In this document: one piece after another, positions 1 through 25,822 of the stretch
How positions within the stretch are numbered: position 1 is the stretch's first letter
Layout of the letters: the number at the start of each line of letters is the position of its first letter
Origin: an archaeon
Lineage (GTDB): Archaea; Asgardarchaeota; Heimdallarchaeia; Heimdallarchaeales; JAJRWK01
Assembly: GCA_024276795.1 (NCBI GenBank)
Contig: JAJRWK010000008.1
Span: forward strand, 1-34,902
DNA length: 34,902 bases
Reading direction: 5' to 3'
Made by a program: the position numbers and the translations under genes
Notes under the pieces: model-generated
What the model was told of the DNA's origin: nothing
Seen by the model: the letters and a program-made list of their open reading frames with translations, nothing else
Databases searched by the model: none

Positions 1-330
1 ACCAGAAAGGCGTGGACCAGAAAGGCGTGGACCAGAAAGGCGTGCTCCAGAAAGGCGTGGACCAGAAAGGCGTGCTCCAGAAAGGCGTGGACCAGAAAGG
101 CGTGCTCCAGAAAGGCGTGGACCAGAAAGGCGTGCTCCAGAAGGGTGTAGACCAGAAAGGCGTGCTCCAGAAAGGCGTAGACCAGAAAGGCGTGCTCCAG
201 AAGGGTGTAGACCAGAAAGGCGTGCTCCAGAAAGGCGTAGACCAGAAAGGCGTGCTCCAGAAAGGCGTAGACCAGAAAGGCGTGCTCCAGAAAGGCGTAG
301 ACCAGAACGGAGTGGTCCAGAATGGAGCCG
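1..330. repeat. Tandem repeat, 15-bp unit arranged mostly as a 30-bp dimer (accagaaaggcgtgctccagaaaggcgtRg), about 22 units of 15 bp, continuing off the left edge
   Basis: Direct inspection; uninterrupted head-to-tail units with a few shared variants (aagggtgtag, aaaggcgtag); the last units at 301-330 are diverged. Confidence 0.97.
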
Positions 331-544
331 TCGAAAAGCTAGCGGCCGAAAAACCACCCGCCCTCATGTCGTTTAGTTTGAAGGATTGATCCTTAAGACC
401 ATTTAGTATTGAAAACATCCCAGGAGCAAGTAATGACGGTTCGGCTGTTGTAGAAGAGGATAGGGTTAGGTTAGGGGCAAAGCCGAAACTAACTACCAGA
501 AAAAAAATACCAACTATTGACAAATGTTTACCATTGATTTTCAT
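1..544 (-). CDS. Secreted protein: N-terminal signal peptide then tandem (S/T)TPFW pentapeptide repeats; C-terminus truncated at window start
   Basis: Manual reverse-strand translation from ATG at 544: MKINGKHLSIVGIFFLVVSFGFAPNLTLSSSTTAEPSLLAPGMFSILNGLKDQSFKLNDMRAGGFSAASFSTAPFWTTPFWSTPFWSTPFW..., open to position 1. Probably missing from the ORF track because no stop lies inside the window. Repeat variants are synonymous in this frame (TCC/TCT, ACG/ACA/ACT, CCT/CCC/CCG/CCA). Confidence 0.8.
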   Translation of the reverse strand, partial: MKINGKHLSIVGIFFLVVSFGFAPNLTLSSSTTAEPSLLAPGMFSILNGLKDQSFKLNDMRAGGFSAASFSTAPFWTTPFWSTPFWSTPFWSTPFWSTPFWSTPFWSTPFWSTPFWSTPFWSTPFWSTPFWSTPFWSTPFWSTPFWSTPFWSTPFWSTPFWSTPFWSTPFWSTPFWSTPFW

Positions 545-556
545 TTACTTGCCCTC

Positions 557-572: not shown

Positions 573-873
573 AATATAATATCGGCTCTTGATTTAATTT
601 ATCAGTTCTAGGGGACAATTCCAGTGAAAAATACTTTTAAATCTCAAGACCATGTGGTTAAAAGGCTTTTGGGAAAATGATTCCTACATACTCCGAGTGT
701 ATAAACACGACAACGGATTATATGCAAAATTGGATAGTAGGGACGCCCAGATACTTGTCCCATACAAGCATGACAAGAAAAAGGGTTAAGTTTAAGTCAT
801 TTTTGCATAAATTCCTTATGAAATCAAAAATATTAGCCATAGTTTCAGAACGGGAACGGGAGGACAGGGTCTC

Positions 874-3042
874 TTATTGTTCGGGTGGGGTTCCAAATAC
901 TTGGGAAATGAGAATATCGAGTTCCTGCCAGGCTATGTCATCGTTTGAAAGGAAAACATCTGCGTTGAAGTATTCTACGACTCCCATTTCAAAAAACTCT
1001 TGTGAGATTTTTCGGAATTTTTTGCGGATTGCATAAGTCTCTTTGTCCGCAATGAGAACCATGATGGCGCGGGGACCCAGTCTTTCGAGGAGAAGGACTT
1101 GGTTTTCTTGTTCAATTCGTTTGATTGATCCTTCACCGAAAAGTTCTTTCGAGAATCCGGAAACGGCTGCGAGGAATCCTCCAATGAGGACTTCATCGAC
1201 CGTGTTTTTCTCATTAAAATGATATGAGTATAGGATGTATCCTTCCGTGTTGAGAAGAAGAAGCATAGTTGGGAGGACGTCTGATTCAGCAATTTTTTCT
1301 CCCAAGGAAGTTTGTTGAAACTGTAGGCTGTGGAGAAGGCGTAGAGCTTCCATAGCGAAGAAGATGGAGAGATATTCGTCGGTAATCCATACTTTCAGAA
1401 TGCTTTTTTCCATTTGATATTCTTCAGAGTTTTTGTTTTCAGGAGAGAAAAAGTTCATTCTTTGCTCGAATCTTTCGATTTCGGAGTGGTGAATGCTTTC
1501 TTCGTGCTCGATATCGTATCGTTTTGCTAGTTCGTATTGCATCATGGCTTCGGAGTAGTTGTCTATTCCCAAGTAGAGATAGCCTATCATGAGATTGAAA
1601 AGAGCTTGGTAATAGGGATTGTCGATGGTGGCCACGAGAGGCTTGAGGTCTAGAAGTATTTCGATTGTTTGATGTAGCACGTTAGGGTTTTGGTCAAGAA
1701 GGTAGCGCTTGATCAGTACTTCTAGAAGAAGGTTTGTTAGTTCAAGGCTGGAGTCATAGTGACCAGATTGGTCTGCTTGAGAGAGACCTTTCAGGAGAAT
1801 GCTCATGCTTCGTTTGAGATCGCCTTCAGACATCGCCATTGTCGCTTCAGCGGTGAGGTACCAAAGGGCATTATAGCTATTTTCTTTGAATGCTTGATCT
1901 AGTGATTTATCTTGGGAAATACCGGCTGCCTCTCGAAGCTTTTCCAAGTAAAAGGTTGCTTTGTCCGGCTGGTCTAGTTTGGAGTAAAGGTAGACAAAGA
2001 GGGAGAGTATTGCGGAGTCACCAATATTGGTTTTTTCGGCGATATTTTCAGCCATCTTCACGTATTCAAGGGCTTTTTCGGTGTTTTTTTCATCAACATA
2101 GACTTTGCTTAGTGAGAGAATATTTCCTAGAGCCATAGGATAATTTTGTAGCTCTGTTAAGGCTCGTACCACGTTTTCTAGTACTTTTGATCCTTCTGTT
2201 CTTCTGCCTTGGAGTATGAGAGCATTGCCGAGGTTAGCACCAGTTATGGAGTAGCCTCTCAAGTCTCGAACTTTGTTGAAATCGTCTAAGGCTTGCCGGA
2301 GCTTTTCTTCTCCCGTTATCATTTTTTGGCGAATGAAGTAAGATATCCCTGCAAGGTTGTAGTAGTAGCCTCTTATCCATGGGTCCTCAACAGCTTCGAC
2401 CCAATTTGCGAAACTATCGATAAGTTCTATGAGATCGGGAATTTTTCCCTCGTAGAGATTCTTTAAAGCGCTTATTAGGTAGGAATAAGAATGTAGAATT
2501 GTGAGTAATGGTTTGGGTAATTGTTTTTGAATAAAATACTTTGATAAGTAAGTTTCAAGAGTTTGGGCTACTTGTGTTACTTCTTCAAACTTTCGAAGAT
2601 AAGTTAGAGTTAGGCCTTTTGTGAACATGGCTTCATAATAGAGAAGGGTTTCGATTGGGCCAGGGGATCGTTCAATATCTAGTTTTTCGAGGGTTTTGTT
2701 GCAATAGTTTAGAGCGGTTTCATACTGGCCTTGGAACATTAATATTCTCCCAATAAAGGGAAGTAATTCGTGTTTTTCCTCGTATTCTTCTAGGATTTCA
2801 TCATAAAAGCACGAATTAACCGAAATTCGGCCAAGCATGAAGTACCAATAGGGAGATGGTTTTGTGAATAGACGAATAGTATCCTTTATGGCGTTGAGGA
2901 GCTTAATGTAGGGGTTGAGGGTTGCTGAAAGTGTTGAGTAGCTGTGCTTGAAACTCACAATCTCGTTTTCTGGAATGAGTTCTAAGAGGAGAAGATATTC
3001 TTGAGGGATTTCGTCTTGTTTTTGAATTGTCAATCTTGTCAC
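874..3042 (-). CDS. TPR-repeat protein with C-terminal longin/roadblock-like domain
   Basis: 722-aa ORF; helical TPR-like repeats (ALEYVKMAENIAEK..., ATFYLEKLREAAG...) followed by an alpha/beta segment MLLLLNTEGYILYSYHF...DEVLIGGFLAAVSGFSKELFGEGSIKRIEQENQVLLLERLGPRAIMVLIADKETYAIRKKFRKISQEF resembling small-GTPase-regulator (longin/roadblock-like) folds. Confidence 0.75.
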   Translation of the reverse strand: MTRLTIQKQDEIPQEYLLLLELIPENEIVSFKHSYSTLSATLNPYIKLLNAIKDTIRLFTKPSPYWYFMLGRISVNSCFYDEILEEYEEKHELLPFIGRILMFQGQYETALNYCNKTLEKLDIERSPGPIETLLYYEAMFTKGLTLTYLRKFEEVTQVAQTLETYLSKYFIQKQLPKPLLTILHSYSYLISALKNLYEGKIPDLIELIDSFANWVEAVEDPWIRGYYYNLAGISYFIRQKMITGEEKLRQALDDFNKVRDLRGYSITGANLGNALILQGRRTEGSKVLENVVRALTELQNYPMALGNILSLSKVYVDEKNTEKALEYVKMAENIAEKTNIGDSAILSLFVYLYSKLDQPDKATFYLEKLREAAGISQDKSLDQAFKENSYNALWYLTAEATMAMSEGDLKRSMSILLKGLSQADQSGHYDSSLELTNLLLEVLIKRYLLDQNPNVLHQTIEILLDLKPLVATIDNPYYQALFNLMIGYLYLGIDNYSEAMMQYELAKRYDIEHEESIHHSEIERFEQRMNFFSPENKNSEEYQMEKSILKVWITDEYLSIFFAMEALRLLHSLQFQQTSLGEKIAESDVLPTMLLLLNTEGYILYSYHFNEKNTVDEVLIGGFLAAVSGFSKELFGEGSIKRIEQENQVLLLERLGPRAIMVLIADKETYAIRKKFRKISQEFFEMGVVEYFNADVFLSNDDIAWQELDILISQVFGTPPEQ

Positions 3043-14013: not shown

Positions 14014-17000
14014 CTAGAGTCTCGAACCGCCTCTTAACGGGGCGACTAGCTGTCCAAACTGTGTAATCAAAGATTCATCTGTTGTGATAACGGCGTATGG
14101 AGCAGGTGTGTCGAGGGGTGTACCAATTAGGAATTGTTCAGCGTCTCGCTCGGCAATGAGAATGTTGGCTCTTTGTGAAGAGAATTTTCGAATGTCCACG
14201 TTGGCAGGAATTGAACGTAGTTTTGCCAGTATTTTTTCATCGCTTGCATCGTGTTCTTGAGGATCCGTGATTATTATGATATGGTGTTTGTCCTTTAACT
14301 GGTCAAGCACATCTTCCCTCATCCAGTAGATTCTGGAAGAGACTATTGTAACTGATCGCTTGGGAGTAGCGAGCATTGCATTCATGGTAGAGGTTAGTGC
14401 ATCCTTTCCGGCTTCGATGTATGACCGTTCGATGGCTTTGGGATCGATTTCTCTCAATCCTTTACTGATTTTATCAAGAACTTCTAATGCGCTGGCTGTT
14501 TGTTGTAGGGCTTGATTGATTGATTCTGGAATACTATTAATGACCGTGGTAAGTTCTTCAGCAGACTGTTGTGCTTGGCCAGCGATCGATTCTTTGTACT
14601 CCGCAAGCAAAGTTTGGATGGCTTCCACATATTGTTGCATTAACTTGTCTTGCTCTTTCTTGTCTTCTTCTGTTTGTGTTTGGAGTATGGAGGAGATTTC
14701 GTTGTTGGCATTGCTGAAAGCAGTCTGAATAGAGCTGGACTGGGCTTTTAGGCCAGCTTCTAGGCCTGTTTTTGCTTTTTGGGCTTCGACTGAAACCTTG
14801 TCAATAGTTTCTCTAACGCCAGTATCAAGTGCGTCAAGCTCAGCCTTGACTTTTGTGTCGAACCCGAATACGGCATCCTCAAGAGATTTATTCGCAGAGG
14901 AAATTACTCGTTCTTTTTCTTTGCCCATCGTTTCTGTTACTCGAGTGGTTTCTTGTTCCAGAGCTTGTTTTGCTTTTTCTTGTTCTTTCTTAAGTGAGGT
15001 TTGGGAAGCCTCTATTGTTTTTTCAGACTCTGCTTTTAGACTATCGAGGTGGGACACGAGTTGGTCTCTAGTGGCCGAAACTTGATTGCGCACTTCATTT
15101 TCAAGAGCTTCAGCAGCTTGTGTGAGATTAGCATCAGTTTCTTGGATCTTTTCTTCGATACCCTTGGTTGTTGAGTTGATCTCATCAACAATTACTGTAA
15201 GGGGTTTCTGAGCGAGCGACACTTTTTCTTTTGCATCTTCGGTTGTTTTTGCAAATTTCTCGTCAATGGTTGATACGAGTTCCTCAGAGTTTTTGAGCGA
15301 ATTGTCTAGTTTTACTCCAATTTCTTTGTCAAGCTTGGCCTTCGTACCATCTAGAAGTTTAACGGTACTTCCGATGGCTTTTCCGATTTCAGTAGTAGTG
15401 GTCTTAACGGTCTTTTCTTGCTCTGCCTTTGCGGCGGCAAGGTGTTCATGAAGTGAGGTTGAGACATCATTAGAGGCGTTATCTAGGTTTTCCATAAAGG
15501 ACCCCACAGCGTTTCTAATGTCTTCGCTTGCTTTCTTTGATGCAGTAGTTAATTGAGAAACTCCTTCCGCGACAGTTTCTTCAAGCTGCTTTGTCTGATT
15601 ACCCAAGGCTTCTCTTGCGTTGTTGTTGCTCTGTTCCAGCATTTCTAGACCTTTTTGATGGGCAGTTTCAAAGGCTTGCTGGGCAGTTTCGACCAATGCT
15701 TCTGCGGCGCTTTTTATCGCAACTTCTGCAGCGGTTTGAGTTCCCTTTACAGAAGTTTTTGCACTGTTGGCGAGATCCGAGACATCCTTCACGTAAGTTG
15801 TTTCCATTTCTCGAGCAGCGCTCTTGGTCTGCTCGATTAGTTCTGCCAAGTCGTTTTGAATTTCAGAGATGAGGGCCTTTACTTGTGTTTCAAATTCGGT
15901 GGTTGCTTCAGTCAAGAGGTTCTTTTCAGTTTCAGGGTCAATGGATAGCGCTGCGGTTCTTGCGTTGGTGATAATAGTTTCAAGAGGTGTGGAGAAGTAG
16001 TTCTGTAATTGGGTGGAGATCGAATCGATTAGCCGTGCTTTCTCTGTCTCGAATTCACTAGCAAAGGTTTGAGAGGATTCCGATATTCCTTGGTGGGCTG
16101 TTTGCTTGGAATCTTGAGTTATTTTAATGAGTTTCGCGATTTCCTCGGAAAGCCTTTCTCTCAAGTCATCAAATTCTTCAGTGAAAAGTCGGGTAGCCCT
16201 ATTGAGAGCTTCGTCCTTTGCGTTTTCAGAATCTACAATAGCTGGTTCCAGAAATGCGTCCAAGTCATGTTTTACTTTAGCTAATTCTGACTTAAGTGAC
16301 GTAAGTCTAGCCAACTGTTCTTCGGCTTCTTTCTTGGGTCCAAAGACCTTCTTGGTATTTTGCTCAACTCTTGCTACTAAATCCTGAAGGGCTAGGTCTG
16401 CGCGTTGGAGAGTTGAGTTATACTGTTGTTTGATGGAGTTAAGTCTGCGAATGTGTTCTTCAAAGAGTGTTTCAATGATATCTGGCAGTTCGTATCTGAA
16501 CCGATTAGTTTTTTCGAGGAATGTATCGAGAAATTCTTCGACGATGCGTTCTTGTCTTTCAGTTAGGCGGTCGAATTCTCGTTCTATGCGATCTGTGATA
16601 TGCTTCACTGAAGTATTGATACCGTCTTCGTAGGCGGAAGAGAGTTCATTGATTCTTTGAGTCAAGAGCCTGACGAAATTCTTCTTGGCGGTTTCCGCTT
16701 CTCCGAGCAAGAGCTGGATTTCGGCTTCGATGTCACTGAGAATCTTTTGTTGTTGTGATTGAGCGTTACTGATCGCTACTGAGAATTTCTCAAGAGAAGA
16801 TTGCGATCTAGTTTTTAACATTTCACTGATTGCATTAGCGGTGTCTTCAAGGTTTTTGGTCGCGTGAGTAGTCTTTTCCTTTAGAGAAGAGATTGTCTCT
16901 TCGAACTGGGCTTCCAAGCTCTGGATAGTTTGGGCTAATTCATCACTGAGTTCTTGATTCTTATTTGCAATGTTCCTCTTACTTGTTTCTAAGATTCTTT

Positions 17001-18441
17001 GCAGGTCGGAGTGAAGATCCTCGATGAATTTTGATAGTGCATTTTGACTTTGCTCGACGTGTTTTTGCATGAAATCAATGAGGAATTGTTTGAGGTCTTC
17101 AACGCTTGAGGTCAAGGTTCTTGAGAAGTCACTTATTTTGGAGCTGAGAGTATCACTAAACTCTTGTGTCATTGTTTTGACAGAAGCGAACTCTGTTGAG
17201 AGAGATTCATTTAGGGTCGCTTCAAGAGTATCGAGTTGGTTTTTCATAGAAGTGAGGTAGTTGTTTAGGGTTTTCTCCAAGCCGTTCTTAGTCTTGGTGA
17301 GTGATTTACTAACCTCTGTCGCGGTTTTCCCAAGGGTGTCGATCGCAACTTCTTTTGTTGTATTTACTTGAACTGAAAAACCGTTGTGTAACTCGCCAAG
17401 TGCTTCAGAATATTGTTTGTGAAGACCGTCAAGGATGTCTTTTAGACTTTGAATTATTTGGTCTGAGGCCTTAGCAACGGCTTCATGCAAGCTTTGTTGT
17501 CGTTCTTCCAACCATTCATGGAAGAGTTTTATGGAGGATAAAACTGCCTGTGAATGATTCTCAAAAGTGGCTTTCGTTTCTGAGGCCAAAGAGGTTCCCA
17601 ATCCATTGGCTGTTTCTACCAGAGTTTTCTGACGGGTTTCATATGATTGTAACAATTCGCTCACAGTATTTTCGAAGAGTTGGACATCCGAAGCCAGCGT
17701 GGCGAGGCAGAGTTTTTTTTCTTCTTCTACAGCATTTACTGCCATTGCTTCGAGGTCACCCATTAAGGTGGTGATTGTTTCTTGAGCATTGGCAAGGTTA
17801 TCTCTCAACTGTGAGGAGAATGCTTGATAATGATCCAAAGCAGCTTTTCGCTGAGTTTTTGAGACTTCAAGCACGTCTTCCGAACTAGAGTCAATTGTTG
17901 AAATAAGTTCATCGACTTGGCTTTCGAGTAAGTTCAGAAGGGACTCGGTATTTGTTTTTATAATCGCCGCAATTTTCTCGATGGATTGCGTTTGCCATGA
18001 GGAAAGAGCTTGTATTCTTTCACTTTTCTTGGCAGTAATTTCTTCCAAGTGCTGGTTTGAAGTGGCTTCTGCTTGGGTTATCAAAGAAGAAGTTTTTTCA
18101 TGTAATGTCTGAGAAGCATGTTCCCATTCAGCAACAATTTTTTCTTGAATTGCTTTCAAATCCCGATTTAATTTAGCCGCAATGTCTGCAGATACCACTA
18201 TTTTTGGGCTTAGAGCGATGTATATGTTGGCTTGTTCGCTCTTTCCGCTGATTTTCTTCACATACCCCTTTTGGGTTAATTGCTCGAGAGCTTGCTGAAT
18301 TTCTTCCAATGGTTTGTTAATATATAATTGAACTTGGCCCACGGTTCGGTATCCAAACGCTGCCAAAGCTTCATAGACTTCTGCCTCGATAGGGGATAGC
18401 CCCGTTCCCTCGAGCTCAGTTTTTAATCCTGTCATTTTCAC
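14014..18441 (-). CDS. Giant TrmB-like protein: N-terminal winged helix, >1000-aa coiled coil, C-terminal TrmB/PLD-like sensor-type domain
   Basis: 1475 aa; N-term LSPIEAEVYEALAAFGYRTVGQVQLYINKPLEEIQQALEQLTQKGYVKKISG (TrmB wHTH); long E/K/Q/A/S-rich heptad-like middle; C-term KRSVTIVSSRIYWMREDVLDQLKDKHHIIIITDPQEH...ILIAERDAEQFLIGTPLDTPAPYAVITTDESLITQF. Confidence 0.88.
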   Translation of the reverse strand: MKMTGLKTELEGTGLSPIEAEVYEALAAFGYRTVGQVQLYINKPLEEIQQALEQLTQKGYVKKISGKSEQANIYIALSPKIVVSADIAAKLNRDLKAIQEKIVAEWEHASQTLHEKTSSLITQAEATSNQHLEEITAKKSERIQALSSWQTQSIEKIAAIIKTNTESLLNLLESQVDELISTIDSSSEDVLEVSKTQRKAALDHYQAFSSQLRDNLANAQETITTLMGDLEAMAVNAVEEEKKLCLATLASDVQLFENTVSELLQSYETRQKTLVETANGLGTSLASETKATFENHSQAVLSSIKLFHEWLEERQQSLHEAVAKASDQIIQSLKDILDGLHKQYSEALGELHNGFSVQVNTTKEVAIDTLGKTATEVSKSLTKTKNGLEKTLNNYLTSMKNQLDTLEATLNESLSTEFASVKTMTQEFSDTLSSKISDFSRTLTSSVEDLKQFLIDFMQKHVEQSQNALSKFIEDLHSDLQRILETSKRNIANKNQELSDELAQTIQSLEAQFEETISSLKEKTTHATKNLEDTANAISEMLKTRSQSSLEKFSVAISNAQSQQQKILSDIEAEIQLLLGEAETAKKNFVRLLTQRINELSSAYEDGINTSVKHITDRIEREFDRLTERQERIVEEFLDTFLEKTNRFRYELPDIIETLFEEHIRRLNSIKQQYNSTLQRADLALQDLVARVEQNTKKVFGPKKEAEEQLARLTSLKSELAKVKHDLDAFLEPAIVDSENAKDEALNRATRLFTEEFDDLRERLSEEIAKLIKITQDSKQTAHQGISESSQTFASEFETEKARLIDSISTQLQNYFSTPLETIITNARTAALSIDPETEKNLLTEATTEFETQVKALISEIQNDLAELIEQTKSAAREMETTYVKDVSDLANSAKTSVKGTQTAAEVAIKSAAEALVETAQQAFETAHQKGLEMLEQSNNNAREALGNQTKQLEETVAEGVSQLTTASKKASEDIRNAVGSFMENLDNASNDVSTSLHEHLAAAKAEQEKTVKTTTTEIGKAIGSTVKLLDGTKAKLDKEIGVKLDNSLKNSEELVSTIDEKFAKTTEDAKEKVSLAQKPLTVIVDEINSTTKGIEEKIQETDANLTQAAEALENEVRNQVSATRDQLVSHLDSLKAESEKTIEASQTSLKKEQEKAKQALEQETTRVTETMGKEKERVISSANKSLEDAVFGFDTKVKAELDALDTGVRETIDKVSVEAQKAKTGLEAGLKAQSSSIQTAFSNANNEISSILQTQTEEDKKEQDKLMQQYVEAIQTLLAEYKESIAGQAQQSAEELTTVINSIPESINQALQQTASALEVLDKISKGLREIDPKAIERSYIEAGKDALTSTMNAMLATPKRSVTIVSSRIYWMREDVLDQLKDKHHIIIITDPQEHDASDEKILAKLRSIPANVDIRKFSSQRANILIAERDAEQFLIGTPLDTPAPYAVITTDESLITQFGQLVAPLRGGSRL

Positions 18442-18449
18442 TTCCTCCT

Positions 18450-19841
18450 CTATAGTTTCTTTTTGGCTTCTTCTAATTCTTTTCTAGCTGCAGCAATGGA
18501 TTTACTGATCTCTTTTTCTTTGGCTTCAAGTGTTTCATTAACTGTTTTCTTCAGAGACCCGATCTTTCCAGTGATGCTGACCTCCCCGTTCTTTAGATCA
18601 CGTGTTAAGCTTTGATACTGAGAATTAATAGCAGTAATTGATTCCCTAGCATTTGAATCGATCTGTGCTCTGATCTCTGCGAGTTGGGCTTCAATTTTTT
18701 CTTGGATCTCTTTGTTTTGTGTGGCGTTGAGCTTCTTGATATCTTCAAGAAGTTTTCTGACTTTGTCCGTTAGGTCGTCTCGTATTAGCCCCTGCTGGGT
18801 GATAATGGTCTCCTTTACTTCATCTAGGGATTGGAAGGCTTTCAGCCTGGTTTCTCTGATTTCTTCGTCGTATTTTTCCTTCAGTTGGGTAATCGAGGTC
18901 TTAAATGTGGTAGCGTCTCTGGTGAGAGCGGAATATATTTCATCTGTGTGTTGTGCACTCTTTTCGCGAAGAACTTTGATTAGCCGGTCTGCTTCTTGTT
19001 CGTAAGCCTCAGCGACATGTTTGATAGCGTCAAGCATGTTACCTTCGTATTCAACCAAAATGTCTTGTGTTCGATTAACCTCTTCTAGGAAGTATTGGTC
19101 AATTCCTTCATTAATTCTCATTAAGTTCTCACGTAACTGGTTGAGAGTGTCTTCAACGATTTCTTGTAGCTGAGCTTTCATCCTTGTGATACCATCAAAC
19201 ACTTGACCGATCTGACTGGTCACCCGCTCACGGAATTCTTGTTGAAGATTGGAGAGGGTTTCTGTGAGTACTTCTTCCTTGATTTTCAAGATCTGCCTTA
19301 ATTCCTGTTCCATAGTTGTGGTTAGAGTCTGAAGGTGATTTCGGACTGAATCTGGAAATTCTGAACTGGTCTGTACCATCTGAGACTCGATATCAGTTGT
19401 TCTCTCTGCATGGCCACTGATAGTCGTGTCAATTAGTTCTCGGATCTCAGTGACTCTTTCTACTAGGTCTTTTTCTTGCCCATCAGAAAGCTTTGTTGCA
19501 AAAGACTGAAAAGCAGTGATGTGCTGAGTTACGGCGTCTAAAAGATCGCTAGAATACGAGAGAGTAAGTTTCTCGATGGTTTGGGCGGTCTGGGCACTCT
19601 CACTTTCAATTACTCCCTTTTGGCTTTCAATGTTATTTTCAATTTCGTTCTTGAAGTTGTCGACTCCAAGCTTTGAGACCTGAAATGTGCTGTTGACCTC
19701 GCTCACCGTTTTTTTCGTAGTGTCTTCAATGGTTGAGCGAAGATCCTTGAGCAAGTTACTCAAGTTTTCCAACGCAGCAATAGCGTTATCTAGATTTTTT
19801 GTGGATTCCAATAGACGTGAATTTTCTTCATTTTTGCTCAT
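18450..19841 (-). CDS. Coiled-coil protein
   Basis: 463 aa, charged heptad-like sequence throughout; 8 nt upstream of the TrmB-like gene; start overlaps the upstream ATPase stop by 4 nt. Confidence 0.87.
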   Translation of the reverse strand: MSKNEENSRLLESTKNLDNAIAALENLSNLLKDLRSTIEDTTKKTVSEVNSTFQVSKLGVDNFKNEIENNIESQKGVIESESAQTAQTIEKLTLSYSSDLLDAVTQHITAFQSFATKLSDGQEKDLVERVTEIRELIDTTISGHAERTTDIESQMVQTSSEFPDSVRNHLQTLTTTMEQELRQILKIKEEVLTETLSNLQQEFRERVTSQIGQVFDGITRMKAQLQEIVEDTLNQLRENLMRINEGIDQYFLEEVNRTQDILVEYEGNMLDAIKHVAEAYEQEADRLIKVLREKSAQHTDEIYSALTRDATTFKTSITQLKEKYDEEIRETRLKAFQSLDEVKETIITQQGLIRDDLTDKVRKLLEDIKKLNATQNKEIQEKIEAQLAEIRAQIDSNARESITAINSQYQSLTRDLKNGEVSITGKIGSLKKTVNETLEAKEKEISKSIAAARKELEEAKKKL

Positions 19842-21526
19842 ACGGACATTTCCCCTTGTGCAATTTTCTTTTCGAGAATAGAGAAGAAGCTTTCATGAGG
19901 AGCATAATCTTTGAGGACTTTCTTTGCTTCAGAGCAGAATTGTTCTGCTCGGCGGGTTTCTTCAGCTTTTGCCATGCATTCAATGCTCTTTAGGTAGAGG
20001 TATCTCTTCATGAAATGTTGTTTTTCATCTAGGCTTTGAGCAATTCTGCGATATCTTGTCCCAGCTTCTCGATAATTGGCTTGAGACCGCCATTTGACGT
20101 TCAATTTGCCAAACATTTCTCCTGCGGTCTCAAAGAGCTTAGCTCCAAAATAGTCTTGCTTTTCTTTTGCAAGAGCACGGCCTATTGTCTCAGCTAGCTC
20201 AGCAACTTTTTCAATGTCGCCCCCACGAGAAAGAGCCGTTTGAGCTAGGAACATGACATCTAGTCCCGATTGAAAATAGCCTTTTTGCACGAGTTGCTGA
20301 GACAACTGTCCTAATTGGCTACCAATTTCAAGAGCAAGCATGTGATCGTGAATCAGAGTTAGTAGTGATTTTAGGCGATTTAGGTTGTGTTCTGAAGGTT
20401 TGAGAGAGTTAGTAACCTCTTCTTGAAGTCTTCTCATCGAGAACTGAATATCTGTGAAAATGTCAGATGGTCTGTATACAAGGCTAAACAGATCGAAGAT
20501 TCCAAGGCTACGAAATGCGACAGACTCTTCATCCCATTCAATGAATCCTTTTTCTTCCAGAGCTTTGAGGCCTTTTTGATAGCTCTCTTCTGAATAATGT
20601 TGGGATGTGAAATAGTTCTTTTCTAAGAGGCTAAGCTTTTCAAGAACAGCTTGTTCTTCTCTGCTAAAACCGAACAATTCGTTTAAGTTGTCTCGAGTAA
20701 TTACATCGAAATGTAGCCCTTTATTTTTGAGCGCCCATCGAAGCAACAAATCTAATGGAGTGCGATGGCTAGTTTTGAGAATTTCCTCTCTTTCCTGTTT
20801 TACTAATCCGGATCTTCTTCTTAGGAAAAGTTCTGCATTGGAATACTCGAAGACATCAGTCCGAACATGGAGGAAGTTTGTTGAATCCCACTCTGGCTGA
20901 TCTTTGAGATAAGATAGGGATTCTTCGTCAACGGTTATGACAAAATAGATAGGGATTTTCTCCTTCTCAAGTTTTGTACTGATTGAGAAGAACAACCTAA
21001 GTGTATCAGGCATGTTGGCGTGGTAAAATCGTTCGCCGTTGTCTGAAATCAACATTAGCTTGATTCGTTTTTCACTAAGTTTCTCACCCATTCGGACGAT
21101 TTCGTGCATAAATGTGGCAGTCAAACGTTCTATTTGTCCGATAGTTAATCGCTCACTAGAAAAAGGAGGGAGGAGCTTTACTGGAGTTCCCCTTGCTCGT
21201 TCCAGAAAAGTCCTCCAATTTAATTTCAACTCGTCTAGGGAAATTTTAATGTTATTGAAAACCTCATGAAATTTCCGTGGTGATATGGGGATTTTAAATT
21301 CTAGTGTGTTGATCCTTTCAAACTGTGCAATTGCATGAAATTTCCTTGCTAGGGAGGTTCTCCCTGATCCTCCTCTACCACTGATTATTACTAGATGAGG
21401 GGTTGGCTGCCCCGCAATGATTTCTCTAGCATATTGTTGAAATGCTTCGATTGCTTTCTCTTGACCTACAAAATCGTCAGGGTTTACGGGAATTAAAAGC
21501 TCGTCTAACCGAATTGTCATTGACAC
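19838..21526 (-). CDS. P-loop (AAA+/STAND/Orc-Cdc6-like) ATPase with helical C-terminal region
   Basis: FVGQEKAIEAFQQYA...HLVIISGRGGSGRTSLARKF Walker A; LMLISDNGE Walker-B-like; helical TPR-like C-terminus. Confidence 0.82.
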   Translation of the reverse strand: MSMTIRLDELLIPVNPDDFVGQEKAIEAFQQYAREIIAGQPTPHLVIISGRGGSGRTSLARKFHAIAQFERINTLEFKIPISPRKFHEVFNNIKISLDELKLNWRTFLERARGTPVKLLPPFSSERLTIGQIERLTATFMHEIVRMGEKLSEKRIKLMLISDNGERFYHANMPDTLRLFFSISTKLEKEKIPIYFVITVDEESLSYLKDQPEWDSTNFLHVRTDVFEYSNAELFLRRRSGLVKQEREEILKTSHRTPLDLLLRWALKNKGLHFDVITRDNLNELFGFSREEQAVLEKLSLLEKNYFTSQHYSEESYQKGLKALEEKGFIEWDEESVAFRSLGIFDLFSLVYRPSDIFTDIQFSMRRLQEEVTNSLKPSEHNLNRLKSLLTLIHDHMLALEIGSQLGQLSQQLVQKGYFQSGLDVMFLAQTALSRGGDIEKVAELAETIGRALAKEKQDYFGAKLFETAGEMFGKLNVKWRSQANYREAGTRYRRIAQSLDEKQHFMKRYLYLKSIECMAKAEETRRAEQFCSEAKKVLKDYAPHESFFSILEKKIAQGEMSV

Positions 21527-21770: not shown

Positions 21771-23999
21771 TCACAGCGGAGATTCTTGGAGCATGTTTGG
21801 CTCGAATTCATTAGTTTCTGCTAATACTAGTGGATAGTCTGGATCAAGTTTGAGCAGGGTGCGAATTGCTAATTCTCGGAGAGAGTAGTCCTCTTCTCTT
21901 TCTATTATTTTTGCCAGGCGTGGTGCAATTTGCTTGGTGCCAATTCTTTCAAACCCCCAATATGCGGCATATCTGATAATTCTCTGTTTTTCCTGCGCAA
22001 GTCTAAGGAGAGTATGAGGAAGTGGATAGTTGCCTAGAGAAATGGCAAGAGCCACTCCATAGAGCATTGTTGAGTCTTTTTTGTAGTGGTTGACTAGAGC
22101 TTTCATTTCTTCTTTTGTGTATGATCGAATAAGCCCTCTCCAAGCAAGAAGCAAAGATCGTGCATTAGAAGAATAGTTCGGGTCTGCATGGGCATTCCAT
22201 ATTTCAGGTAGCACTAAATCGGGATGTCTTAAAATGAAGCGAATAGCATTCCACCGATGAGGGGTCTCCAGAGTAAAACGTATTCTTTCTCGCAAGTTTT
22301 CTTGTGAACGTGGAATCAATAACCACAGAAAGATGGGAAATAAACCATACATTCTGTAATGAATTTCACCTGTCGAGCTCCAAATTGTGAAATTGACAAA
22401 CATTAATCCAAGTATGAAAGCAGACAGGATTTTGATTCTTTTCTGCCAATGTAGGTCAAACATGTCAAGACGATAATTGAAGTGAGCAAAGCTATAAGCA
22501 ACAAAAAACAGAAAGAAAGAAGGAATTACCAAGAGTCGAATGCCTAGATCGATCTTGGCAACGATAGATAATCCATAGAAATTTCGATATGTAGCTGTTA
22601 GAAAAGCGGCATATAAGAATCCGAGAGAGATAAGTAGACCAAATTTAAGGGGGGATGATAGAAAAGGAATAGGCTGAGTGAAAGCCCTAATATCCTCTTC
22701 TGGAAATGGATCTGTAACATATTCAACTACTTCTTTTTGCTGTGAGAGCATTAGAACTTCTGGCGATGGTTTTCCCATGAGCATTCGAAATATTAGACTA
22801 GCCGCGATCCCAGCGAGCAGCGCTGCAATAAGAAAGGCAAGCAATAATTGAAGCGCAGTCCTTGCTTGTCCAAAAACGTAGTAGAGAATGACATTGATTA
22901 CCACGACAGTAAGGGTAACCGCTAGAATCCCCATGAATTGTTCCTTAGTTGTCTTGACTATTTGAGCCAAGAGCTCTAGCATTTCTTTGGTAAAGATAAA
23001 TGGAATAAGAAAGGCAAGGAAGAGAAGGAATAATAGCCCAGTTTGGATGAGATTGTCAATTTTATCCACAACCGTGTAAGGTGGTGCTAGGGGATCATAG
23101 GTTCCAAGCGCTTGTGGAAGTAGCCTTATGACAACATCATGAAAGGCTTCTTCTCGGGGCAATACATGAATCAACAGGGTGAAGGCGATGGAGTAAATTA
23201 GCTTCTTAGTTATCCAGAAAACTATGCCTGCGAGTATTCCTGCAGAAAGGGAAATAATGAAGGAATAGATAAAGAATGGTCCCTGGGCTACTTGGAATAA
23301 CTCGAGCTCAAACATAAGAACCTGCATGAAGGCCGGAATTAGGATTGCAGGTCCCGCGCCAACATTCCATTTTCGAAGTTCCCCCCCAATCAGCCCTCGG
23401 AGGAGGTATTCCTCGGCGATGTAGAAAACTGCAAATGCTACAGCAAGTAAAGCGATTGACTGTTTATCTTGCCCTGCGCTGAAATTCGCTGCTGTTGTGA
23501 GAAAATCCAGAGTAGTTATTTGGAATGCACGTTCTGGTCGAACTACACTTCCGGGGCCTAAAAAGTATTGAAAAGAAAGCCGTGTCGCTGTCAATATGAG
23601 GATGTAAATAGAAAGGACGCTGAGAACCACTACTGTGCCTTTCTTCAGTGAGGTTCTTCCGGGCCCATATAGCGCGATTCCCGTGGATGAGCTTCTCATT
23701 TCAACGAGAATGATGCGAGAAATGCCAGTGATAAAAGCAATGATAGAAAATAGAGCCACGAGCCCGTCAATTGATGCTCGCGGTGGAAAAGGTCTTCCAA
23801 GTATCAGTTGATACAGAGTCGGACCTAAGAATCCACCGATGAGGTAACCAAGAATCCAACCGTTAAAGTATACGGAGTATAAATGACTGATTAGTATTTG
23901 TCCATGAAACGAAGTCATTTTGAATCTGGATGGTTCTCGAGGAATCATTACGACTTGGCCACTGAAAGGTACTTGAGTTATATCTTGAGGCTGACTCAT
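21771..23999 (-). CDS. Multi-TM CPBP(Abi)-like protein with C-terminal HEAT-like repeats
   Basis: FYIAEEYLLRGLIGGELRKW (EExxxR CPBP motif 1) within TM segments; C-terminal helical repeats IIRYAAYWGFERIGTKQIAPRLAKIIEREEDYSLRELAIRTLLKLDP. Confidence 0.75.
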   Translation of the reverse strand: MSQPQDITQVPFSGQVVMIPREPSRFKMTSFHGQILISHLYSVYFNGWILGYLIGGFLGPTLYQLILGRPFPPRASIDGLVALFSIIAFITGISRIILVEMRSSSTGIALYGPGRTSLKKGTVVVLSVLSIYILILTATRLSFQYFLGPGSVVRPERAFQITTLDFLTTAANFSAGQDKQSIALLAVAFAVFYIAEEYLLRGLIGGELRKWNVGAGPAILIPAFMQVLMFELELFQVAQGPFFIYSFIISLSAGILAGIVFWITKKLIYSIAFTLLIHVLPREEAFHDVVIRLLPQALGTYDPLAPPYTVVDKIDNLIQTGLLFLLFLAFLIPFIFTKEMLELLAQIVKTTKEQFMGILAVTLTVVVINVILYYVFGQARTALQLLLAFLIAALLAGIAASLIFRMLMGKPSPEVLMLSQQKEVVEYVTDPFPEEDIRAFTQPIPFLSSPLKFGLLISLGFLYAAFLTATYRNFYGLSIVAKIDLGIRLLVIPSFFLFFVAYSFAHFNYRLDMFDLHWQKRIKILSAFILGLMFVNFTIWSSTGEIHYRMYGLFPIFLWLLIPRSQENLRERIRFTLETPHRWNAIRFILRHPDLVLPEIWNAHADPNYSSNARSLLLAWRGLIRSYTKEEMKALVNHYKKDSTMLYGVALAISLGNYPLPHTLLRLAQEKQRIIRYAAYWGFERIGTKQIAPRLAKIIEREEDYSLRELAIRTLLKLDPDYPLVLAETNEFEPNMLQESPL

Positions 24000-25822
24000 A
24001 TTTCACTAGCTCCTAGCACAAGATCGGCTTCAGCATGTTCTCTTGTTTTTCTCAGTTTGAAGATCTTTGATAGACGTTTTGAAATTCTCCACGAGATGAA
24101 GACTGCAAGCAAAATAGCAGTCACGCGGACCCGAGGGTTAGTGCCTACTCTTATTGTAGCAAATGCTTGATTATTCTCTTCTGATGATTCTGAGACTTCA
24201 TTTAAAATGTCGATATTTACACGAACATTCACGTTATGTTGGCCATAACTTTCAAATCGTGAGATTAACAAGACTTTTTCTCCCAGTCCCTCCAGAAATT
24301 TTATTCTTGTTTCCAGTTTGAGCTTTCCATCGATGTAGATTTGAACTTGGAATGATCCGACGGGAAGGGTTCCGTTATTCTTGACGGTTACAAAAATCTT
24401 GAGCGAACTCAATTCTTCAGGATCAGCGGGTTTCGACGTAATCTGTGCCACAACTAGGTCTGCGAATCGATACCACGATGAGTTAAACCCTGTAACCGAG
24501 GAGTTAAACGAGACAGAGTTGAGGGGAAACAAAGAATATGCTAAGCTTGCTTGTGGAGGTACGTGAGTTGGACTTGCGGAGTATCCAACCCCAGAACTAG
24601 GCGTTCTCATGAGGGGGATTAAAGTCTGATTCAAAGACTCATCTGAAACAGATACAATCGCGGGCGTGGTTAGATTCAAGGGCTCAGAATATAAGAAATA
24701 GGAAGTATCTGTTGCGTATACGGGAAGAAAAGACGTCGGATATTCTCTTGCAAATAGTGCGAAGGTCCCGCCAAATTTTAGCTTTGGAAATGCAAAAAAT
24801 TCAGCTGCATTCATTTCTTCTAAAGCGGTGAGTTGCGTTGCGGCTCCAAAGATTTGACCCCCGAAAAAGGCTGTGGGCATCCAAGTTATTGTGAGGTCTT
24901 TCTCGCTAGTTATTTGAGTAATCAGACCGTGAACGGGATTTCGTGGAACAATGTAGTAGGAGGTTTTGTTGCTCATGGCTAGAGAAGTGGTAAACCCGTC
25001 CTCGTATTGGATTAATACTCTGTTTGTTGTGTTAGACCATAAGTGGAGAGAAGATATATCTTCTGCGTCGGTATTATTTGAAAAAGCCACGGGAACTCCT
25101 TGGAAATTCTTTCCCTTAAGAAAAGACGGTAGGAGAAGAGTAGCAACACTTCCTCTGGTTGAATTAATTGTTAGAGAAACAACGATTGAGGGGCGTGAAG
25201 TCTGAATCTCGTCTCCAATTTCTGCTTGAAAAGAGTAGGCAGATCTTGCATCTTGAACATTGTAGATTTGGGAAACCCGTTCAAGGCTACTGGGGATGAG
25301 GGAAATCTCATTGTTAGGAGAGAGGGAATATACTTGAATCAATGCATTAGGCAATGTATTCACAAAGCGATAGCCATACATTCTTGCAGGGAGCACCGAA
25401 TAACCAAACGACAAGTCTTCAGTTTGTGAGATGTTTTCGGAAGCAACTATTACTTGCAAAGGGGCAGAGGACAGGATGAGTGATCCGTTTTTTATGTTAG
25501 ATATTTGTTCAGGAGCAATTCTCAAGGTTTTCCCAGGGTCAAGGTTCAGAATAGATGTATTGTTTACCAAGAATTCTGTGAGAATCTGAGTTTGGAATCC
25601 GGATGTGATGTAAATAGAAGTAGGATATTCTTTTGTGAACACAAGTGGCAAGTAATAGTAGTAAACTTGGCTTCCGCCGCCACCACCCCCGCCGCCGCCA
25701 CCACTTGGAGGAGTGGGGTCTCCTTCGGCACTCTCTGAAGCAACAGCTACTAGAGAGAAATGAACAGTGAAAAGCCCTAGAAGAATCATGATCAGTAGCA
25801 GAAGAAGCATGATTCTTTTCAT
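23996..25822 (-). CDS. Secreted/membrane-anchored surface protein with poly-Gly linker, beta-rich region, CARDB-like domain and C-terminal TM
   Basis: Signal peptide MKRIMLLLLLIMILLGLF; GGGGGGGGGG; CARDB-like LSSLKIFVTVKNNGTLPVGSFQVQIYIDGKLKLETRIKFL...NVNVRVNIDILNEVSESSEENNQAFATI; TM near the C-terminus. Confidence 0.82.
   Translation of the reverse strand: MKRIMLLLLLIMILLGLFTVHFSLVAVASESAEGDPTPPSGGGGGGGGGGSQVYYYYLPLVFTKEYPTSIYITSGFQTQILTEFLVNNTSILNLDPGKTLRIAPEQISNIKNGSLILSSAPLQVIVASENISQTEDLSFGYSVLPARMYGYRFVNTLPNALIQVYSLSPNNEISLIPSSLERVSQIYNVQDARSAYSFQAEIGDEIQTSRPSIVVSLTINSTRGSVATLLLPSFLKGKNFQGVPVAFSNNTDAEDISSLHLWSNTTNRVLIQYEDGFTTSLAMSNKTSYYIVPRNPVHGLITQITSEKDLTITWMPTAFFGGQIFGAATQLTALEEMNAAEFFAFPKLKFGGTFALFAREYPTSFLPVYATDTSYFLYSEPLNLTTPAIVSVSDESLNQTLIPLMRTPSSGVGYSASPTHVPPQASLAYSLFPLNSVSFNSSVTGFNSSWYRFADLVVAQITSKPADPEELSSLKIFVTVKNNGTLPVGSFQVQIYIDGKLKLETRIKFLEGLGEKVLLISRFESYGQHNVNVRVNIDILNEVSESSEENNQAFATIRVGTNPRVRVTAILLAVFISWRISKRLSKIFKLRKTREHAEADLVLGASEI

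Follow-up and report, generated by a model that had tools for sequence, protein, structure and literature searches.

The window analysed here, a stretch of 34,902 nucleotides, is contig C290 in the 295-contig genome of an Asgard archaeon (G000). At its left edge lies the beginning of a minus-strand gene whose hydrophobic leader and Ser/Thr-rich linker run into a repeat cut by the contig end (Table 1). TRF detected one tandem array in the window, at 1-322 (period 15/30, score 553), and the minus frame is open for 181 codons from the ATG at 544 to base 2, where it runs off the contig. We place the array start at about base 334, which leaves 335-544 for leader and linker, a small correction to the extent given earlier. 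The leader LSIVGIFFLVVSFGF has a mean Kyte-Doolittle value of 2.5, and equivalent leaders are found in G001, G005, G006, G010, G012 and G057; by hydropathy and inspection, the window protein and these relatives carry an N-terminal signal peptide, as the initial annotation had claimed, and the protein is predicted to be Sec-type secreted. Over the 70 unique codons of leader and linker, comparison with the sister species G001 gives a dN of 0.12 and a dS of 0.42, and the GGFxATxF motif of the lead-in is also present in G005 and G057.

Table 1. Features of the array protease gene and its surroundings (window positions unless a locus is named).
Feature	Position	Strand	Basis or remark
TATA-like element TATTATATT, ~30 nt upstream of ATG	573..581	-	Sequence; putative
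Shine-Dalgarno-like GAGG, 8 nt upstream of ATG	553..556	-	Sequence; putative
Start codon and signal peptide MKINGKHLSIVGIFFLVVSFGFAPNLTLS, approximate cleavage site	458..544	-	ORF from ATG 544, hydrophobic core
Ser/Thr-rich linker, GGF..A..F lead-in to array	335..457	-	
Aromatic-dyad pentad array, 22 FW units ((S/T)TPFW), cut by contig end	2..334	-	
Antisense ORF (QKGVD/QKGVL), not a gene	12..389	+	GTG start within repeat; neither residues nor stop retained by sister species
TPR-repeat protein, neighbour and synteny marker	874..3042	-	Pfam TPR; orthologue adjoins array gene in G001, G057 and G006
3' part of array and subtilase	L033:4839-6095	-	Contig C198

The initial annotation had taken the minus strand as coding and the plus-strand ORF across the same repeat as an artefact, and both judgements hold. 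On the minus strand, the 22 FW dyads are separated by 21 spacings of exactly five residues each, and the units read STPFW (20) or TTPFW (1) despite codon variation. The Ser codons alternate between TCN and AGC, a switch of two base changes, with the residue unchanged; Thr is written ACG, ACA or ACT and Pro CCT, CCC or CCG, all synonymous on this strand. In the remaining five frames residues change, and stops arise in one antisense frame. The sister species shares the minus frame, with STPFW in 14 of its 15 units and third bases that differ from those of the window, and its plus-strand units are mostly QNGVD/QNGVL where the window has QKGVD/QKGVL. A control search with the array pattern read backwards gave no match. 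The plus-strand ORF is open in the window, but its GTG start lies inside the repeat, the sister genome keeps neither its residues nor its stop at 389, and the strand opposite codes for a conserved enzyme; that it is a real gene is scarcely credible, and on the comparative sequence evidence it is antisense noise. An early minus-strand stop beyond the contig edge, which the initial annotation had named as the outcome that would speak against its reading, did not appear: the frame goes on into a subtilase.

In the whole genome, the array was found only at two contig ends, those of C290 and C198. The C198 terminus carries 12 STPFW units in the matching orientation, which lead into a charged stretch of about 50 residues, followed by a full Peptidase_S8 domain (E 3.9e-51, 174.5 bits against a curated cut-off of 21.8). 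The catalytic domain begins at IPWGI, its motifs DTGID, GHGTHVAG and GTSMAAPH leave the Asp-His-Ser triad intact, and the protein stops directly after the domain. Both contigs break inside the repeat, as expected for short reads meeting a long array. We conclude that the window almost certainly contains the 5' half of a secreted subtilase (S8) gene and that the array, as read from these two contigs and the orthologues, is the N-terminal extension of this predicted protease, comprising at least ~30 pentads (here P-F-W-S-T); 34 dyads are visible on C290 and C198, of which overlap could double-count a few, and more may be missing. The stand-alone protein built from repeats that had been suggested earlier is rejected, since the C198 array leads into the subtilase. 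The assembly does not physically join C290 and C198, and the repeat gene of the window and the C198 subtilase might in principle be two distinct array proteins. This is very improbable: each of the two sister genomes has a single N-terminal and a single C-terminal half, three relatives carry the whole as one ORF, and the copy in G006 adjoins an orthologue of the TPR gene next to the array in the window. We accept the domain order because relatives carry these uninterrupted orthologues.

In G001 the gene shows the same two breaks as in the window genome and has the same neighbours, and G057 shows the N-terminal half only. Since the assemblies of G000, G001 and G057 all break within the array, a gene of this kind readily drops out or is assigned to the wrong strand. 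In G005, one 906-aa ORF runs from the signal peptide through FWST repeats spanning ~500 residues and a charged segment of helical appearance to the protease. G010 has array and subtilase in one frame of 926 aa, with PYWST and ten-residue units, and G006 has both intact in a 626-aa frame on a 669 kb contig, with PYWSV repeats and 26 dyads. The G008 protein, truncated at a contig start, has PFYSF repeats that lack Trp dyads, and that of G012 has (S/D)(Y/F)(F/W)MQ repeats. Arrays are thus documented in seven genomes and, as an N-terminal half, in one more. The TPR gene of the window has one match each in G000, G001 and G006; in G006 the orthologue and the intact array protease gene are ~1.1 kb apart, that of G057 adjoins the N-terminal half in opposite orientation, and G005 and G010 have their TPR match on a different contig from the array gene. 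A pattern search across the genomes sampled from the phylum placed FWST-type arrays in four members of this class, other matches being isolated or different, but this pattern is blind to the PYWSV, PFYSF and YFMQ flavours, for which the subtilase search is the better guide. What had been a fragment at a contig edge becomes a defined, testable family of secreted Asgard archaeal proteases with a long aromatic arm.

The enzyme itself is an ordinary subtilase; the arm is what is new. The orthologues match Peptidase_S8 with 165-190 bits, and proteolytic activity is predicted from the intact Asp-His-Ser motifs. In the catalytic-domain tree, the seven array-bearing subtilases form one clade with a support of 93/96, just below what the program itself requires of a firm branch. 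Its sister group consists of array-less subtilases of ~350 residues from the same genomes and from another family of the phylum. These paralogues run from signal peptide through a short linker to the catalytic domain, which suggests that the catalytic domain does not need the array. The nearest solved structure is Tk-subtilisin from Thermococcus kodakarensis (2zwo, E 2.2e-57), with which the catalytic domain, the triad motifs and the IPWGI mature start are shared. The phmmer alignment starts at the mature domain and leaves the Tk-subtilisin propeptide unmatched; the N-terminal position that the propeptide holds in Tk-subtilisin is occupied here by the aromatic pentad array. The five orthologues searched, like the window half, showed no I9 prodomain up to E 10, and no other recognised non-catalytic domain or C-terminal anchor was found in the array proteases. 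PADLOC also returned matches, which are to the generic subtilase domain and were set aside.

The orthologues offer several natural versions of one repeat rule, which makes the family useful for learning what such repeats do. Their repeats are lineage-specific, namely STPFW, FWST(A/I/V), PYWST, PYWSV, PFYSF and (S/D)YFMQ, and share a unit of the form [P/A/S]-aromatic-aromatic-[S/M]-[T/V/F/Q]. The conserved feature is therefore an aromatic dyad per five residues and not Trp, which is not required, as the PFYSF repeats of one orthologue and the YFMQ repeats of another show; the initial annotation had remarked on Trp every five residues as unusual. In G000, G001, G005, G006, G008 and G010, 90-100% of dyad spacings are multiples of five, with ten-residue steps where a pentad has lost its dyad; in G012 the share is 64%, partly since runs of three aromatics count twice there; such spacing could also stem from a history of 15-bp duplication. 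Unit number differs between species, from 26 to about 70, and units are alike within a gene and unlike between species, a pattern that we take as the signature of concerted evolution with selection acting on the protein. Unequal exchange would keep the units of one gene alike and so give each species its own flavour, while selection would preserve the five-residue register and the aromatics.

The fold of the array was approached by comparison and prediction. The SV2 luminal domain is a pentapeptide beta-helix, and pentapeptide repeat proteins are characterised by a right-handed quadrilateral beta-helix. This domain (PF23894) and the pentapeptide repeat proteins (PF00805) share with the array a five-residue period and a central aromatic. 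The G005 array scored 30.9 bits against LD_SV2 (cut-off 29), just over the line in one of six proteins, and PF00805 gave no match up to E 10 in any orthologue. Against the A(D/N)LXX-type consensus of at least eight contiguous units (PMC8145042), the array agrees only in its T at i-2 and its F at i, two positions out of the five, and carries Pro at i-1 and Trp at i+1, so it does not fit. Weak matches to BimA and Extensin look compositional. Searches of the PDB with the array sequence found nothing, and single-sequence AlphaFold2 models of the window protein and of the bare array gave the array a pLDDT of ~40-54, too low to inform on its fold.

Arrays with Trp every five residues attached to a subtilase also occur in Chloroflexota. 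In five S8 peptidases from this phylum (L352, L398, L440, L448 and L468), Trp pentad arrays follow the catalytic domain at the C-terminus, with the flavours YWDQT, YWDQA, WDTVS and WNNLT/WDNLA. These arrays have few units and are C-terminal, whereas the Asgard array is N-terminal, and the catalytic domains of the two Chloroflexota proteins included in our tree lie far from the Asgard array clade. The two kinds of array are probably convergent, which is the simpler reading because they are distant in the tree and stand at opposite ends of the protein. A scan of genome contigs for [FY]W pentads returned, among the matches listed, mostly short or apparently non-coding sequences and two Chloroflexota S8 peptidases; these matches are a lower bound and say little on absence elsewhere or on commonness. 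In viral sequences, the FW-pattern scan gave single three-unit matches only. A short SDPFW pentad array was also seen in an ORF at a contig edge of Kangiella (L387).

Our literature search found no description of these arrays. Overall, we consider a secreted subtilase that bears its aromatic-dyad array as a stalk or anchor to be the best explanation, and a reasonably probable one. The array is the only non-catalytic part of the protein besides the short charged segment. We lean, by a modest degree, toward a non-catalytic stalk or anchor as its role. The regularly spaced aromatic pairs would stack on each other or on components of the envelope or matrix, and the stacked array would tether the protease to the cell surface or retain it within the extracellular matrix. 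Such proteases hint at how these archaea may keep exoenzymes near the cell. A comparable arrangement is known from Staphylothermus marinus, whose STABLE protease is held on the tetrabrachion stalk (PMC5744192): there, too, an archaeal subtilase stands on the cell surface by means of a long repetitive stalk. The likeness is one of functional analogy only, because the STABLE stalk is a separate S-layer coiled coil, whereas the array belongs to the same chain as the protease and is not a coiled-coil repeat.

The main rival to a stalk or anchor is a cleaved pro-region that keeps the enzyme inactive or aids its folding in place of the I9 prodomain. The array does lie between signal peptide and catalytic domain, the prodomain site of secreted subtilisins, and I9 itself went undetected; the close array-less paralogues, with their short linker only, nevertheless indicate a lineage that seems not to need a prodomain, and prodomains are usually compact and do not show a spread like that seen here, from 26 to about 70 units across species. 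We consider this role unlikely. Somewhat less likely again is a module that binds a substrate or polymer. Carbohydrate-binding modules bind through rows of aromatic residues, and aromatic rows on the protease could likewise engage polysaccharide, humic or insoluble protein substrate. The aromatic pair, in which Trp swaps for Tyr or Phe while the pair stays, is the most conserved feature of the array, as binding would ask, but the array matched no binding module, and its YFMQ and PFYSF flavours do not resemble the binding surfaces that are known.

It is also conceivable that the array is a minisatellite, grown and homogenised largely by slippage and tolerated as a disordered spacer. The very similar DNA units within each genome and the low AlphaFold2 confidence for the array would agree with this, yet drift would not hold an aromatic dyad and a five-residue register over six flavours, nor would it retain Ser across TCN/AGC switches, and we regard such an origin as improbable. 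Going beyond a stalk or anchor, a more speculative and rather doubtful extension would make the array a new regular repeat that folds or self-assembles in a five-residue register, tolerates FW, YW, FY or YF, and displays the protease on the Asgard surface in a species-specific flavour, with a similar array having arisen independently in Chloroflexota, at the opposite end of their subtilases.

Several other genes on the two contigs deserve mention in their own right. The genome has 28 Ras-family GTPase matches, a content that points to an Asgard archaeon, and one of them adjoins the C198 half. Next to a Ras-like GTPase lies a gene for a 225-aa protein with no Pfam match (L033:4026-4703, plus strand), which is conserved alongside the protease in G001 (86%). 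The same locus holds a class II ribonucleotide reductase gene (L033:3-1523, minus strand) that is split by a LAGLIDADG-domain intein and cut by the contig end. In the window, three adjacent genes at 14014-21526 (minus strand) encode an ATPase with weak AAA/Orc-like similarity and two coiled coils, of 463 and 1475 aa, the larger with an N-terminal TrmB-type HTH and weak similarity to ZorA. At 23996-25822 (minus strand), a secreted CARDB protein has a run of ten glycines after its signal peptide, and its gene adjoins genes that by eye look DUF58- and MoxR-like.
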